DNA from: Mogibacterium sp.
GTDB taxonomy: Bacteria; Bacillota; Clostridia; Peptostreptococcales; Anaerovoracaceae
NCBI GenBank assembly: GCA_017515425.1
Contig: JAFWFU010000011.1
Coordinates: 1-32,823 of the forward strand
Direction of reading: 5' to 3'
DNA: 32,823 nucleotides
The stretch's first letter is position 1, and every line of letters begins with the position of its first letter. A program made the position numbers and the translations under genes. The notes beneath the pieces were generated by a model. The model was given only the letters and a program-made list of their open reading frames with translations, was not told where the DNA came from and ran no database searches. Below are positions 25,788-32,598 of this stretch, one piece after another.

Positions 25788-25884
25788 GGGCGAAGTAGGG
25801 CGCAGCGCGTCAAGTGCCGCAGGATGGGAAGTTGTCTGCGGACGAAGAGCATAGGCTCGCGGTGCTGCATCCGCATCCGTCGCC
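25788..25884 (+). ncRNA. Tetrahydrofolate (THF) riboswitch controlling folT
   Basis: Aptamer of the THF class found upstream of folate transporter genes. The conserved sequence blocks GCGTCAAGTGCCGC, GGATGGGAAGTTGTC, GACGAAGAGC and GCGGTGCTGCATCCGC occur in order. Helices: P1 GGCGA (25789-25793) with TCGCC (25880-25884); P2 GCAGC (25802-25806) with GCTGC (25864-25868); P3 CCGCAG (25817-25822) with CTGCGG (25836-25841); P4 GAGC/GCTC around 25847-25858. It sits between the promoter and folT. Alignment is from memory. Confidence 0.93.
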
Positions 25885-25952: not shown

Positions 25953-26480
25953 ATGAAAAATAAAACAGTAAACAAAGACAGTAAAACGCTCATGCTCGTC
26001 ACGCTGAGCGCGCTTATCGGAATCGAGATAGTGCTTTCGAGATTTCTTTCCATTTCCGCGTGGAATACCAAGATAGGGTTCAGCTTCGTTCCTATCGTCA
26101 TAGCTGCAATGCTCTATGGGCATATAGCCGGAGGCATAGTCGGGGCTCTGGGTGATTTTATCGGAGCGGTGCTTTTCCCTATTGGGGCGTATTTCCCAGG
26201 CTTTACTCTGACGGCGTTTTTCACGGGTATGGTTTTCGGACTTCTGCTTTATAAGGGGCAGAGCATAGCGAGAATTCTGACAGCGGTGCTCATCAATCAA
26301 TGCGTGCTGAGCCTTGGTCTCAACACTCTTTGGATAGCTGTTCTTTACGGCTCTCCATATGGCGCGCTTTTTCTGACACGCATAGTGCAGACGGTGATAC
26401 TCATTGCCGTACAGACGGTTGTTATAGCAGTAATCGCCAGGGCGCTGCCGAGATTTAAAGCGGGGCTGGCGGCGGCTTAA
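25953..26480 (+). CDS. folT: ECF transporter folate-specific S component
   Basis: 175-aa membrane protein with about six hydrophobic segments, the substrate-binding S component of an energy-coupling factor transporter. The opening TLMLVTLSALIGIEIVLSRF and the motif GALGDFIGAVLFPIGAYFPGFTL are typical of FolT-type S components. The THF riboswitch upstream supports folate as the substrate. It needs shared EcfA/EcfT subunits encoded elsewhere. The ribosome site GGGAGGG ends 8 bases before the ATG. The gene is followed by the folate polyglutamylation gene, so uptake and retention of folate are coupled. Confidence 0.93.
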   Translation: MKNKTVNKDSKTLMLVTLSALIGIEIVLSRFLSISAWNTKIGFSFVPIVIAAMLYGHIAGGIVGALGDFIGAVLFPIGAYFPGFTLTAFFTGMVFGLLLYKGQSIARILTAVLINQCVLSLGLNTLWIAVLYGSPYGALFLTRIVQTVILIAVQTVVIAVIARALPRFKAGLAAA

Positions 26481-26532
26481 ATGTAGATAAGCGTATGGAT
26501 TGCGGAGAAGGAATCGGACTGCGGATAATAAT

Positions 26533-27087
26533 ATGAATTATGAACAAACTTTGGACTATATAAATTCGGTGAGGCTTAACCAATGGAAGCTCGGGCTGTC
26601 TCGGACGCGGGAGCTTCTTCATATGCTCGGGGATCCCCAGGACAGTCTGAAATTCGTTCATATCGGCGGCACCAACGGAAAAGGCTCCACATCGGCAATG
26701 ATAGAGTCAGTGCTGAGAAAGGCGGGCTATCGCACGGGGATTTTTCCATCTCCATTTATCGAGGAGTTCAGGGAAAGAATCAGGGTGAGCGGTGGCAAGA
26801 TTTCAGAGGACGACCTCTGTAGGATTACGGAAAGGGTGAAAGCCGCCGCAGACAGAATGGAGGACGAGCCGAGTCATTTTGAAATCGTTACAGCAATAGG
26901 CATGGTCTATTTCAATGAAAGAAACTGCGATATTGTGGTACTCGAGGTAGGGCTCGGGGGAGAATTCGACGCCACGAATATAATCAGAGCGCCTGAGGCG
27001 GCGGTGCTGACAAATATAGGTTTGGATCATACGGACTTTCTCGGGACGACGCTCGCTGAGATAGCGAGGACTAGGCGGGAATCATAA
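26533..27087 (+). CDS. folC: Folylpolyglutamate synthase, N-terminal part (frameshifted gene)
   Basis: First half of a folC-type gene; FolC adds glutamates to folates (and dihydropteroate). From ATG 26533 (MNYEQTLDYINS) it has the Mur-ligase-like ATP site GGTNGKGST (45-53), the signature FPSPFIEEFRERI, and VLEVGLGGEFDATNI with TNIGLDHTDFLG. The normal continuation (EIAxxKAGIIKSG) is lost: after GCG AGG ACT the reading shifts and stops at TAA 27085-27087. Moving to the -1 frame at about 27075 gives AGIIKSGSHVIIYP, the expected sequence, with no gap. So one base is missing, by mutation or sequence error. A TTG at 26500 is an alternative start. No slippery heptamer is evident. Confidence 0.85.
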   Translation: MNYEQTLDYINSVRLNQWKLGLSRTRELLHMLGDPQDSLKFVHIGGTNGKGSTSAMIESVLRKAGYRTGIFPSPFIEEFRERIRVSGGKISEDDLCRITERVKAAADRMEDEPSHFEIVTAIGMVYFNERNCDIVVLEVGLGGEFDATNIIRAPEAAVLTNIGLDHTDFLGTTLAEIARTRRES

Positions 27088-27101
27088 AAAGCGGCTCGCA
27101 T

Positions 27102-28412
27102 GTGATTATATATCCGAATTTGCCAGAAGTCATGGATGTGCTGAGAGAGGTCTGTGAAGATAGGGGTTGCGAGATGAGCATAGCTGACTTCGGGAGAATG
27201 ATTCAGCTTGATACAGATCTCAGCGGACAGACACTTCTTTGGAAAGGGCAAGACCTCATATTCAAATTGCCGTTAATCGGGGACTATCAGATGAGAAATG
27301 CCACGGTCGCACTGACAGCCATAGAAATCCTGCAAGAGAAGGGCTGGGATATATCAGATATGGCTATTATAGAAGGAATGTCAGAAGCTGAATGGCAGGC
27401 GAGATTTGAGCTCCTCTCTTACGACCCTGTGTTTATACTCGACGGCGGGCATAATTCTCAATGCGCCGAGGCTGTGGCAGAGTCCCTCAGAAAATACCTG
27501 CCGAATACCAAGTTGACGCTCGTTATCGGAATGCTTAGAGATAAGGACTACAGTGCGGCATTGGATATTTTGCTGCCTTTTGCGGAGAAATGCTATTGTC
27601 TGACTCCCGAGAGCGAGAGGGCACTTTCTGCGGATAGTCTTGCGGAACTTATCAGAGAAAAGGGTGTATCTGCGGAGAGTTTCGAAACGGCAGAGGAAAT
27701 CCTGACTAAATGCTTTGATGAGGAAGCTCCCGTCTTGGCATTCGGCTCTCTCTATATGGCTGGGGAAATCAGAAAGACGCATAGAAGGCTCAGCAAGAAA
27801 AGAATCAGGGATAAAGCAAAAAGTGCAAGAGAAGCTCTTTCCGAAGAGGAGAGGGATAGCTTCTCGAAAGAGATCTGCAAAAAGATTGCTGAGACCGAAG
27901 AATATAAAAAGGCGAATATCATATTCGCATACAAATATGCAGGCGGAGAGGTCAGAACTGATGAACTCGAAAAAGCGGCTCTCGCAGAAGGAAAGCTAAT
28001 CGCCTATCCTGTTTGCGGAGCGAAGAGCATTTCCAATCATCTTCGCGCCGATAGGGAGAATGATTACAACCTTTTCACCGACGGGAAGGATATGGTGGCT
28101 GTAATTCCTGGAGAGGAACGGGACGCATGGAAGGAGAGCGGCTGCTATGGAATTAGAGAGCCTGCGTTGGAAAAGGGCAAAATGATAGAACCCTCGGGAA
28201 TAGATTTGATTATCGCGCCCTGCACTTCCTTTGATGAAGAACTTAACAGACTAGGCATGGGCGGAGGCTATTACGACGGATATTTGCCTAAATGTGAGAA
28301 CGCTAAGACCTTTGCGGTGGCATTTGAGGTTCAAAAGAGCGATAAGATACCGACTGATGAGCACGACTATGCGGTGAATGCGGTTATCACGGAGAAAACG
28401 GTATATTTATAG
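27102..28412 (+). CDS. FolC C-terminal part fused to 5-formyl-THF cyclo-ligase (MTHFS)
   Basis: Second half of the frameshifted gene; the frame is open from about 27075, and the ATG at 27102 is only the first in frame, without a ribosome site. Residues 1-225 are the FolC C-terminal region (LPLIGDYQMRNATVAL, FILDGGHNSQCAEAV, VIGMLRDKD, AFGSLYMAGEI). From about residue 230 (nucleotide ~27790) a complete 5-formyl-THF cyclo-ligase domain follows: KKRIRDKAKSAREALSEEER, IFAYKYAGGEVRT, IIAPCTSFDEELNRLGMGGG and YYDGYL. It converts 5-formyl-THF to methenyl-THF using ATP. Together the gene (26533-28412) encodes a FolC-MTHFS fusion of about 626 aa, broken at one position. Confidence 0.85.
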   Translation: MIIYPNLPEVMDVLREVCEDRGCEMSIADFGRMIQLDTDLSGQTLLWKGQDLIFKLPLIGDYQMRNATVALTAIEILQEKGWDISDMAIIEGMSEAEWQARFELLSYDPVFILDGGHNSQCAEAVAESLRKYLPNTKLTLVIGMLRDKDYSAALDILLPFAEKCYCLTPESERALSADSLAELIREKGVSAESFETAEEILTKCFDEEAPVLAFGSLYMAGEIRKTHRRLSKKRIRDKAKSAREALSEEERDSFSKEICKKIAETEEYKKANIIFAYKYAGGEVRTDELEKAALAEGKLIAYPVCGAKSISNHLRADRENDYNLFTDGKDMVAVIPGEERDAWKESGCYGIREPALEKGKMIEPSGIDLIIAPCTSFDEELNRLGMGGGYYDGYLPKCENAKTFAVAFEVQKSDKIPTDEHDYAVNAVITEKTVYL

Positions 28413-28528
28413 TGTGTACTCGAAATAATACAATGCAAAATACGCATTCTATTCTACAAAAGACAAACGGTAATCGACAAAACGCACACGAAAAATGAAA
28501 AAGGCGCAAATGCTGAAAAATCAGGCTG

Positions 28529-28556
28529 TTGACAGGATTTATTTCTCGTATAGAAT
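28529..28556 (+). promoter_or_regulatory. Promoter of the structured small-ORF RNA
   Basis: The -35 box is TTGACA, a consensus match (28529-28534), the spacer is 16 bases and the -10 box is TAGAAT (28551-28556). Transcription would begin near 28563, right at the first strand of the outer helix of the RNA. The stretch 28413-28528 before it holds nothing I recognise. Confidence 0.75.
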
Positions 28557-28564
28557 AGTCTACA

Positions 28565-28814
28565 GATAGGTGAGCAGTGGCTCGCGGTTGGCTCAACCGG
28601 AAAAGTTTTTACTACATTCCTACCGTCTAAGGAGGTGGTGGCCATGGTAGAGACTATTCGAAGGGAGGGGCCGGAGATGGTAAGGGTTACAATAACGTTT
28701 AGTCATAAGACTATACGGGTAACAATTAGCATTAGCAAAAGCCGTCAGTCACTAGACTAGACGGCAACCCTAAACCGGTTGAGTCAGATGCTGACGAGCA
28801 TCGCTTCACCTATC
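28565..28814 (+). ncRNA. Structured RNA of about 250 nt enclosing a small ORF, unrecognised
   Basis: Nested long-range helices close the whole element. Outer: GATAGGTGA (28565-28573) with TCACCTATC (28806-28814), 9 bp perfect. Next: 28590-28600 with 28775-28785, 11 bp with one G-U. Inner: CCGTCTA (28623-28629) with TAGACGG (28758-28764), 7 bp. The inner helix brackets a ribosome site and a 38-codon ORF exactly. Local alternatives compete: CGGTTG/CAACCG (28585-28599), GCCGTC/GACGGC (28741-28765) and GATGCT/AGCATC (28788-28802). The predicted transcript start coincides with the outer helix. I do not recognise the class; a mobile palindromic element with 9-bp ends is another reading. It lies upstream of thyA; no intrinsic terminator follows. 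Confidence 0.6.
28644..28760 (+). CDS. Small ORF of 38 codons inside the structured RNA
   Basis: Starts MVETIRREGPEMVRVTITF and ends SKSRQSLD. It is preceded by a very strong ribosome site, AAGGAGG, at 28629-28635. The peptide is basic with alternating polar/hydrophobic strands and an internal repeat (MVRVTITFS and TIRVTISIS), so it could form a beta hairpin. No signal peptide or membrane helix. The stop TAG is part of the helix strand that pairs with bases just before the ribosome site. Whether the ORF is a peptide gene, or its translation only remodels the RNA, cannot be decided here. Confidence 0.5.
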   Translation: MVETIRREGPEMVRVTITFSHKTIRVTISISKSRQSLD

Positions 28815-28926
28815 ACAATTATACGAAAATCTCCAATCAGGTGCAAGCAAATTTCAAATAAAATTGCTAAATAGTAGAAATGCCAGAGAGGTAGGCGCGA
28901 TAAGGTAAATATTACGGAGGAATGAT

Positions 28927-29881: not shown

Positions 29882-29940
29882 CTATATGCTAGCAAAGCGT
29901 GCATTTTTATCGCATTTTTATAAGGAGAAAGGAAGAAAAA

Positions 29941-31779
29941 ATGGCAGAGCTAAAACGCACACAGCTTTATGACGTACACGTCGCAGAGGGCGGCACTATG
30001 GTCGATTTCGGCGGATGGGAAATGCCTATTCAGTATCCGAGCGGCATTATAGCTGAGCACCTCTACACCAGACATTTCTGCTCCATCTTTGACGTTTCCC
30101 ATATGGGACGACTCATTGTAGAGGGCCCGGAGATGGTAAAATTCCTCCAGCATGTGCTGACAAGCAATGTGGAATCCCTGGTGGTTGGGAAAGCCCAATA
30201 CTGCATGATTCCTGACGAGAACGGCTGCGCTATAGACGATGCGTATCTATATCGTTTTTCTGAGGAGAGGTATCTTCTGATTGTTAATGCTTCCAATACG
30301 GACAAGGACCTCGAACATCTGAATAAAGTAATAAAGGACTTTGACTGTACGATTACAAACATCACTCCTGAATGGGCTTCCGTAGCCGTGCAGGGACCTA
30401 AGAGTAAAGAGCTGCTGATGGTTCTCTCCGGAGGAGAGGCTATAACGGAGCCTGAAAAGAACGCGCTGAACCACCTCGATTTCGAAGGACGTGAAGCCTA
30501 TGTAGCTAAGACAGGATACACGGGTGAGCCAATCGGATACGAGGTTTTTGTTAAGTCTGAGGACGCTGAATGGTTCTGGAACAGAATGAAGGAGCTCGGC
30601 GCTAAGCCTGCGGCTCTCGGTGCCAGAGATACGCTCAGGGTTGAGGCGGGTATGCCGCTATACGGTCACGAGATGAGCGACGGAAACGACCACGACGCTC
30701 CGACTCCTATGCCTATCTTCGCGGTATCTCTTGCGAAATTTGCCGTGAGTTTCTCAGAAAGAAAGGGCGACTATATCGGTCGCGAGGCACTCGCCAAGCA
30801 GAAATCAGCATTTGACAAGATTCAATGCAGAGACTATAGCGAGATTGACGTGCTTCCAAAGAGCATTAAGCCTATCACGCTTCTCGACAGAGGCGTACTG
30901 CGTAAGGATATGGAGGTTTATAAGAACGGGGAGCTCGTCGGCATTACCACCAGCGGTACGATGGTGCCCTATTATAAGGCTGAGGGCGAAGGGCTTGAGA
31001 GCGTGATTACAGAAGAAATTGCAAAGAGATCAATCGGATTGGCGTATATCTCGAGCGATATTCTTCCTGATGATATAGTAGAGGTTGACGTAAGAGGAAA
31101 GAGGCTGAAGGCGGTTATTCCGCAGAAACATCTCGATACCATGGCGCCGCCGTTTGCGCGCCCGATGATTTACGGAACCGAGATCAGTCAAATGGAAATC
31201 AGTGATGAGCCGAGGGCGAAGAAGGCTCTGACCCTCATCAAAAAGGCTGAGGATAATCATCTTTGGAGACAGAAGAAATGCGTCAATCTCATTCCGTCCG
31301 AAAACACGCCGAGTAAGGCTGTGCAAATGCTGTCGGCTTCCGACCCGAGCGCGAGATATGCGGAGCATAAGAAGGTCAAATCATTCTATGACAAGGATAT
31401 TTTCTACTATCAGGCTACGGGCTTTATAGACGAAGTGGAGCAGCTTGCTGTGGATGAGCTCAGAAAATACTTCGGTTGTACGGAAGTTGAGACCAGAGTC
31501 ATAAGCGGACAGATGTCCAATGTCTGTGCGTTCTCAGCTCTCATGGATTGGAAGAACAGACTGAACAGGAAGCAGACTCCGCAGAGGCTCGGATATATCC
31601 TGAACAACCATATTATAAAGGGCGGACACCTCTCTGCTCAGCCTATGGGTGCTCTGCATGACTATGTGGCAGTTGACCCCAAGACGGAGAGAAGCGCCGT
31701 CGTAAACTTCCCTGTTTTGAAGGATAATATCTTCAAGATTGACGTTGAGGAAACGAAGAAGGTAATTGACGAGTACTGA
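29941..31779 (+). CDS. gcvT: Aminomethyltransferase (GcvT) fused to the N-terminal part of serine hydroxymethyltransferase; ends at an in-frame TGA
   Basis: Residues 1 to about 403 are a complete GcvT (T-protein of glycine cleavage): FGGWEMPIQYPSGI, FDVSHMGRL, VQGPKSKELL, TGYTGEPIGYEVF and GARDTLRVEAGMPLYGHEM. From about residue 424 a serine hydroxymethyltransferase begins (NLIPSENTPSKAVQ, DPSARYAEHK, NVCAFSALMDW). TGA at 31777-31779 interrupts it before the PLP lysine; the same frame then continues as SHMT to 32598. The T domain should work as it stands, but this product would lack SHMT activity. The start MAELKRTQ at 29941 is favoured by AAGGAG; an in-frame ATG at 29899 is unlikely. The full fusion would be 885 aa. 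Confidence 0.88.
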   Translation: MAELKRTQLYDVHVAEGGTMVDFGGWEMPIQYPSGIIAEHLYTRHFCSIFDVSHMGRLIVEGPEMVKFLQHVLTSNVESLVVGKAQYCMIPDENGCAIDDAYLYRFSEERYLLIVNASNTDKDLEHLNKVIKDFDCTITNITPEWASVAVQGPKSKELLMVLSGGEAITEPEKNALNHLDFEGREAYVAKTGYTGEPIGYEVFVKSEDAEWFWNRMKELGAKPAALGARDTLRVEAGMPLYGHEMSDGNDHDAPTPMPIFAVSLAKFAVSFSERKGDYIGREALAKQKSAFDKIQCRDYSEIDVLPKSIKPITLLDRGVLRKDMEVYKNGELVGITTSGTMVPYYKAEGEGLESVITEEIAKRSIGLAYISSDILPDDIVEVDVRGKRLKAVIPQKHLDTMAPPFARPMIYGTEISQMEISDEPRAKKALTLIKKAEDNHLWRQKKCVNLIPSENTPSKAVQMLSASDPSARYAEHKKVKSFYDKDIFYYQATGFIDEVEQLAVDELRKYFGCTEVETRVISGQMSNVCAFSALMDWKNRLNRKQTPQRLGYILNNHIIKGGHLSAQPMGALHDYVAVDPKTERSAVVNFPVLKDNIFKIDVEETKKVIDEY

Positions 31780-31806
31780 CCTGAATTCATCATCTTTGGA
31801 AAGTCA

Positions 31807-32598
31807 ATGGTAATCCACAAGGAGCCTGTTGCTGAGATTAGAAAATATGTCGACGATATGGGTCTTGATACGACTATCATGTACGATATGGCTCATGTCC
31901 TCGGTATTGCGGGAGATTATTTCCAGAAACCTTTCGAGGAAGGTGCGGAGATCGTAACCGGTTCCACGCATAAGACATTCTTCGGTTCTCAGAGGGGTAT
32001 CGTAGCAATGAACTACAAAGAGGATGAGCTGAAATACGGGCTCTGGGAGACTGTAGAGAGAAGAGCCTTCCCAGGAAGCGTGTCAAATCACCACCTCGGC
32101 ACACAGCTCGGGCTTCTGATGGCTGCATACGAGATGAACGAGTTCAAGGACGCATATCAGAAGGCGATTATCACAAATGCCAAGAACTTCGCAAAGGCGC
32201 TCAAGGCTGAGGGGCTGAATGTATGTGGAGACCCTGCGAACGACTATACCGAGACACATCAGGTGCTCGTAAGCGTAGGATATGGTGAAGGCCCTGAAAT
32301 TGCCACGAGACTCGAGAATAATAATATCGTAGTCAACTATCAGGCGACTCCTGATGAAGAGGGCTTCACGGCTTCCGGCGCGCTGCGTATGGGAGTCAGC
32401 GAGATGACGAGATTCGGATTCGGAGAGGCTGAGTTCAAGAAGCTGGCTGCTCTGATGGCGGACTGCATTCTGAGAAACAAGGACATTTCGGAGGACGTCA
32501 GCAGGCTCAGAGCCGACTACACCAAGATGCATTATTGCTTCGACGATAAGGAATTCCTCGAGGCACTCGAGAGCTTTGCCGGAAAGATTGGGTTTTAA
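31807..32598 (+). CDS. glyA: Serine hydroxymethyltransferase, C-terminal part of the interrupted fusion
   Basis: It continues the upstream frame after the TGA (PEFIIFGKSM then VIHKEPVAEIRKYVDD). ATG 31807 is just the first in frame; GGAAAG lies three bases before it, too close for a good ribosome site. It contains the SHMT active-site region: YDMAHVLG (26-33) and GSTHKTFFGSQRG, with the PLP lysine at residue 56 of this fragment, then NHHLGT and the C-terminal domain through FAGKIGF. It interconverts serine and glycine with THF if joined to the N-terminal part. Alone, it lacks the THF- and dimer-forming N-terminal region. Joining requires only read-through or correction of one codon. Confidence 0.85.
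   Translation: MVIHKEPVAEIRKYVDDMGLDTTIMYDMAHVLGIAGDYFQKPFEEGAEIVTGSTHKTFFGSQRGIVAMNYKEDELKYGLWETVERRAFPGSVSNHHLGTQLGLLMAAYEMNEFKDAYQKAIITNAKNFAKALKAEGLNVCGDPANDYTETHQVLVSVGYGEGPEIATRLENNNIVVNYQATPDEEGFTASGALRMGVSEMTRFGFGEAEFKKLAALMADCILRNKDISEDVSRLRADYTKMHYCFDDKEFLEALESFAGKIGF

Follow-up and report, generated by a model that had tools for sequence, protein, structure and literature searches.

What is the short, strongly folded stretch of DNA that separates the folC-fthC gene from thyA in a Mogibacterium sp. genome? It occupies positions 28529..28814 of the window (the whole stretch of 32,823 nucleotides that was analysed), and a sequence-only reading had seen in it a structured RNA with its own promoter, for which it offered three suggestions: a regulatory leader-peptide RNA, a type I toxin-like module or a mobile palindromic element. 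We find that the element belongs to an unnamed family of very small units, each of two genes, in gut and rumen bacteria, and the sequences point to it being, quite probably, a chromosomal module of the type I toxin-antitoxin kind that represents a new family, with a layout as in txpA/RatA. That reading draws on two promoters, a conserved peptide, an antisense gene with its terminator, covariation and one-way loss, all supported at the level of sequence, and we regard it as the best account because it accounts jointly for the layout, for the antisense gene, for the selective constraint on the peptide and for the one-way loss. The toxin-like module thus fits best of the three suggestions, with covarying homologues and a conserved ORF behind it, but the single-gene view had missed a key part of the unit, the antisense gene on the opposite strand. 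Feature positions are collected in Table 1.

Table 1. Features of the element in the window copy, with the evidence for each.
Feature	Position	Strand	Evidence
Peptide-mRNA promoter, TTGACA-16-TAGAAT	28529..28556	+	11/12 consensus positions
Predicted peptide mRNA, start near 28564, 3' end inferred	28565..28850	+	fold z -7.7 over 28560-28820
Outer helix, 5' arm	28565..28573	+	compensatory changes in window copy
Outer helix, 3' arm	28806..28814	+	perfect 9-bp pairing with 28565-28573
ORF1 ribosome site, AGGAGG	28630..28635	+	in 27/28 copies with peptide ORF
ORF1, in this copy in frame with the peptide (hence the 38-codon reading)	28644..28760	+	frame not conserved
Conserved peptide gene, 27 codons + stop, MVRVTITFSHKTIRVTISISKSRQSLD	28677..28760	+	pN/pS 0.36; 27-row alignment; profile 52 bits
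Antisense RNA (probable antitoxin), ~80 nt, 5' end near 28814	28735..28814	-	R1 match E 2.7e-17; compensatory changes in two hairpins (22 copies)
Antisense terminator hairpin, short T run here	28741..28765	-	sequence; alignment; U tract of 4 in window copy
Antisense promoter, TTGCAC-17-TATAAT	28818..28846	-	-10 28818-28823, -35 28841-28846

The consensus-like promoter named in the sequence-only reading was borne out, and a plus-strand promoter matching at least 9 of 12 positions recurs in 26 of the 28 copies that retain the 5' part. We infer the 3' end of the mRNA, because a strict sense terminator occurs in 5 of 28 copies and is absent from the window copy. In those five copies (L039, downstream of the match on G000:C35, and four others) the mRNA terminator hairpin, with a GCAA loop, overlaps the antisense -35 region on the opposite strand, and one short sequence serves both genes. 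The plus strand folds at -107.5 kcal/mol compared with -68.5 +/- 5.1 for 200 shuffles (z -7.7), and the minus strand at z -4.6. All three helices that had been proposed, the perfect outer one and two long-range helices nested within it, could be located, the middle one at 28589-28600/28775-28786 and the innermost, of 7 bp, at 28623-28629/28758-28764, where it runs as described from the base preceding the ribosome site to the stop codon. Homologues do exist and show the compensatory changes expected of a structured RNA: in 14 copies, 96.1% of cells pair in a consensus fold of 70 pairs, 19 of which have changed on both sides, and the covariation score of 0.248 compares with 0.150 +/- 0.008 in shuffled alignments (reached by 0 of 500) and with at most 0.079 in slid registers, none of which reached it. 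Three outer pairs and part of a fourth are altered on both sides in the window copy, and since the antisense RNA holds only the 3' strands of the two outer helices, this compensation argues for pairing within the mRNA itself. Across genera the outer arms give a cognate mean of 8.39 of 9 pairs versus 7.36-7.64 for non-cognate combinations, and pair fully in 11 of 28 cognate and 120 of 444 non-cognate combinations, a weak test because most arms are alike. The inner helix reaches at least 5 bp in 21 of 27 relatives, being weaker there, and its cognate mean of 5.26 (3.61 when shuffled) lies near the 4.79 of non-cognate combinations, so that covariation of this helix is unsupported.

The further proposal that translation of the ORF could switch the fold found no support, and neither did exposure of the ribosome sites by the antisense RNA. 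Averaged over 27 copies, the predicted unpaired probability in the full mRNA, the antisense-covered mRNA and the 3'-cut mRNA was 0.29, 0.31 and 0.31 for the first ribosome site, 0.44, 0.36 and 0.36 for the second, and 0.10, 0.11 and 0.12 for the peptide start. These values indicate no opening of the start region, the second ribosome site closing slightly at most. Pairing with the antisense RNA alone is not predicted to shut the ribosome sites.

As to the protein-coding part, the enclosed ORF had been described as 38 codons long, and such a frame does exist in the window copy; the conserved unit, however, is the 27-codon ORF at 28677, which in 14 aligned genus copies is the stretch that stays constant as protein and which has its own purine-rich ribosome site. 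The Ka/Ks comparison proposed for the ORF indicates purifying selection, with changes mostly synonymous and pN/pS over codons 2-20 well below the 1.06 and 1.22 of the other two frames (14 relatives' copies, the window copy excluded, the remnant G014_1 dropped and G146_1 trimmed to its ATG). The upstream frame, ORF1, varies in its relation to these codons, being in frame in 6 of 28 copies, overlapping in another frame in 16, ending just upstream in 5 and absent in 1; the distant copy G338 has no upstream frame. Family-wide, the peptide ORF is intact in 27 of 50 places, with ATG as start in 26 and TTG in one, and G008_1 has ATT at the peptide start position. The peptides are 25-28 residues long and cationic (net charge +4 to +7). 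They contain two repeats of the R-V-T-I-T type, and most have a tail of the form K-K-A-A; outside the genus the repeats and a K-A-A tail are retained, as in MRITISVPRWGLRVTISIKKAAKAKN, and the tail of the window copy deviates.

For want of a hydrophobic helix, none of the 27 peptides has the usual look of a type I toxin, which is not a universal one: their best 17-residue hydropathy is 0.39-1.19 versus 2.08-2.38 in three Hol_Tox peptides from the same bacterial family, and RalR and SymE are described as cytosolic exceptions to the hydrophobic helical type (PMC8309996). In 26 of the 27 peptides the moment is larger at 170 than at 100 degrees, and beta periodicity was significant against shuffles in four of seven tested, the window copy (p 0.078) not among them; judging by this pattern, the peptide is probably an amphipathic beta hairpin. 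No Pfam or NCBIfam model matched any of the 27 members at E up to 1, including PF16935, the Hol_Tox profile that covers TxpA. PADLOC gave no match for the same members at E up to 10, PHROGs none for the window peptide and one stretch of a relative's, and no solved structure matched the window peptide.

The opposite strand carries the second gene. In the genus copies its promoter lies just outside the 3' arm, with the -10 hexamer ending 3 nt before the arm, and it scores at least 9 of 12 in 14 of the 15 complete genus copies (the exception is G033), as do 6.1% of shuffled flanks. Three pairs of the antisense RNA's 5' hairpin and one of its terminator hairpin have changed on both sides among 22 copies, and the transcript is predicted to end at a run of T that overlies the final codons of the peptide gene. 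At the sequence level the element would thereby show one mark of a type I system, an antisense gene that has a promoter and a terminator of its own and overlaps the mRNA of the toxin, and the short antisense RNA probably keeps the peptide silent.

We then asked how far the unit has spread. A first search matched 16 of 99 genomes (own included), all from the same genus, and the covariance model R1 found 33 places in 21 of 47 genus genomes and 50 places in 30 of 349 genomes of the bacterial family, from 5 of 92 genera (own genome counted in both). Seven of 297 genomes of the order matched R1, all belonging to the same bacterial family and one of them (G125) weakly, at 27 bits. In the class, R2 in 391 genomes and the peptide profile A5 in 291 matched only the own genome, a result that says little about rare carriers because the other known carriers were evidently undrawn or unmatched. 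R2 was built from 46 of the 50 places (G030_3, G000_C1, G026_2 and G018_2 were left out) and amounts roughly to a sequence profile, since RNAalifold recovered only the terminator stem from the 46 sequences, so that family-wide covariation of the antisense hairpin is unsupported. Viral contigs (two patterns), plasmids (two queries) and phages (one query) yielded no matches. The 16 stretches from one pattern scan were metagenome assemblies of an uncultured Clostridiales bacterium or of Mogibacterium sp., a genus placed in Anaerovoracaceae by NCBI, and came from goat and sheep gut and from the RUG sets, which we take to be rumen sets. Genomes may carry several copies, tandem ones included: contig C35 of the own genome bears another complete copy and also a partial one. 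Two complete copies lie 460 bases apart on one contig of G020 (L007 and L023, C139), and a complete copy shares a contig with an antisense-only copy in G017, in G008 and on C35 (L022 and L053, G000:C35). That the RNA is undescribed, as the sequence-only reading had supposed, agrees with the search of 28500-28870 against Rfam, which gave no match at E up to 5, and of five loci, drawn from the family and from Hol_Tox, none reached a gathering score. Absence from every family library tried (Pfam, NCBIfam, PADLOC, PHROGs and Rfam) suggests that the family is probably unannotated in its carrier genomes. We found no paper on a type I toxin in Mogibacterium in the open-access literature and no recognised description of the family in that on type I toxin-antitoxin systems.

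The two genes are not lost alike. Within the 47 genus genomes, 18 of the 33 antisense genes lack an intact peptide half, and a search with the peptide half returned 15 long matches and 3 remnants, every one of which adjoins an antisense gene found with R1; no peptide half without an antisense gene was found in these genomes by blastn, which is less sensitive than the RNA model. In 16 of the 18 antisense-only copies (two being unjudgeable), the point from which the sequence resembles complete copies lies anywhere from 1 nt inside to 49 nt before the antisense terminator. The antisense promoter persists, 14 of the 18 scoring at least 9 and 15 at least 8 (6.1% and 23.2% when shuffled). Eleven pairs were compared for identity. 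Six, at different or partly different sites, were usable and gave 0.78-0.98 over the RNA, 0.71-0.87 over the promoter region and 0.34-0.44 over the 100 nt beside the terminator; the other five, at one shared site, were distorted by deletions, and the low values among their RNA identities (0.31, 0.91, 0.76, 0.77 and 0.26) were judged alignment artefacts. At this shared site G004, G026 and G033 are complete, G014 lacks the peptide gene with antisense gene and promoter kept, and G018 has lost both the peptide gene and the antisense promoter. The antisense gene can therefore decay too once the peptide is gone, as the toxin-antitoxin reading allows, and several antisense-only copies may derive from shared losses. 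Read from the sequences, one-way loss of this kind is the footprint of a toxin and its antitoxin.

It is this footprint that weighs against a peptide harmless to its producer, namely a signalling, antimicrobial or regulatory peptide whose dose is kept low by the antisense RNA. Its cationic and amphipathic character would suit such a role, as would its unlikeness to the membrane-helix type I toxins described in PMC8309996. Yet lone antisense genes in 18 of 33 places, with no lone peptide half, would go unexplained, and inspection of the 25-28 residues showed no export signal, so that we consider this alternative unlikely.

The genomic surroundings bear on the two remaining suggestions. Other copies adjoin different genes. 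Ten further close thyA loci were compared: the folC-fthC gene also precedes thyA in G043, where no element separates the two, a folC-like gene faces the opposite way in G029, and eight show no match to the upstream gene. G043 thus supplies the empty site that had been sought in relatives, and the comparison suggests that the element is gained or lost as a unit and that its place before thyA is incidental, as had been suspected. Dispersed copies with different neighbours, several in one genome, and the unoccupied interval in G043 would also suit a small element, mobile or repetitive, that carries a peptide gene and is bounded by the outer arms as terminal inverted repeats. Both promoters are conserved and lie outside the arms, though, the arms vary between copies and yet still pair in the window copy, antisense-only copies have lost one arm, and no target duplication was seen at the one site compared (G043); whole units may have spread, but we consider a mobile palindromic element very improbable. 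A leader RNA controlling thyA or the folate genes, as its position between folC-fthC and thyA here might suggest, is scarcely credible given the varied neighbours, the gene order kept in G043 without the element and an antisense gene left unexplained.

Elsewhere in the window, the sole Rfam match is a THF riboswitch (RF01831, 87.9 bits, 25789-25884, plus strand), which precedes a membrane-protein ORF (25953-26480) and the folate genes. Two coding stretches are each split over two ORFs, 26500-27087/27102-28412 and 29899-31779/31807-32598; going by their translations, we take 26500-28412 to be folC-like and 29899-32598 to be glyA-like, with gcvT-like and glyA-like parts in one frame. These splits are either assembly frame breaks or real breaks.

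For the toxin-antitoxin module we propose a mechanism whose transcription, toxicity, membrane target, RNase III step, coupling and beta fold are all predictions. A sigma-70-type promoter would give an mRNA of about 290 nt, closed by pairing between its two ends, in which the start codon of the peptide and the ribosome sites would sit in local hairpins. It would encode the cationic peptide of 25-28 residues, probably an amphipathic beta hairpin, harming the cell most likely at the membrane. From the convergent promoter an antisense RNA of about 80 nt would cover the end of the ORF and the 3' arm and pair with the mRNA, which would most likely be removed as an RNase III substrate, as RatA acts on txpA; we favour such decay over ribosome-site switching because the 3' end has little bearing on the predicted openness of the start region. 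The variable ORF1, usually running over the peptide start, may in addition gate the peptide through coupled translation, in the manner of mok and hok. Over 28735-28860 the copy in the window seems partly decayed, with a peptide tail altered by two compensating shifts, an antisense T run of four and no clear mRNA terminator. Its outer arms have changed together despite these signs.

On the best reading of the sequences, the new part of the module would be its peptide class, cationic with a two-strand beta pattern and no membrane helix; membrane-acting type I toxins are all helical according to one review (PMC8309996). A beta-patterned cationic family, if true, would broaden what antisense-silenced toxins can be. 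More tentatively, as a possibility that we put a little short of probable, this may be the first type I toxin family to act as a cationic beta-hairpin rather than as a membrane helix or nuclease, with an mRNA doubly locked by paired ends and an upstream gating frame, and with lone antisense genes retained as protective relics once the toxin had been deleted. Since close relatives differ in having complete or antisense-only copies, they offer a natural test of the idea that antitoxin RNAs persist as immunity once the toxin is lost.

Among known systems, the layout is closest to that of txpA/RatA and, likewise, bsrG/SR4 of Bacillus subtilis. As in the layout proposed for the element, their toxin mRNA and antisense RNA are transcribed towards each other and pair through their 3' ends, the ribosome site is strong and a genome can carry several copies; the antisense RNA is described as speeding mRNA decay via RNase III (PMC6562991). 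The overlap of about 80 nt in the element compares with 100-140 bp given in that review, and the element differs from both in its unrelated peptide (no Pfam match in 27 members) without hydrophobic helix and in the frame-variable ORF1. The aapA/IsoA system of Helicobacter pylori resembles it in 5'/3' long-distance pairing, local hairpins over the ribosome site, a cis antisense RNA and several copies (PMC6733600), but in the element the predicted openness of the start region is no higher after the 3' cut, and the peptide is unrelated as far as tested. With hok/mok/Sok the element shares an upstream frame and a strong ribosome site, this frame either overlapping the toxin start or being fused in frame with the toxin in 22 of 28 copies, and doing neither in the other 6. 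Hok mRNA, too, folds back to pair its ends; the element's antisense RNA lies at the mRNA 3' end, unlike Sok, which lies at the leader and marks a hok/Sok system, and the toxin is unrelated to Hok. Closer at hand, the same genome has two Hol_Tox-type loci, L104 (G000:C38:54258-54329) over the Pfam cut-off and L116 (G000:C41:15296-15367) below it. They differ from the element in their hydrophobic peptides of about 26 residues, and no sequence kinship was found: AGGAGGTGAT, common to the element and these loci, is presumably the complement of the 16S rRNA 3' end, and leader kinship is unsupported, the pattern search matching 0 of 148 genomes with a pattern so strict that it missed the own-genome copies too. 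As in the element, their ends can pair, their ribosome site is strong and a hairpin lies at the stop codon, and we count loci of such similar layout in the same genome in favour of the toxin-antitoxin reading.
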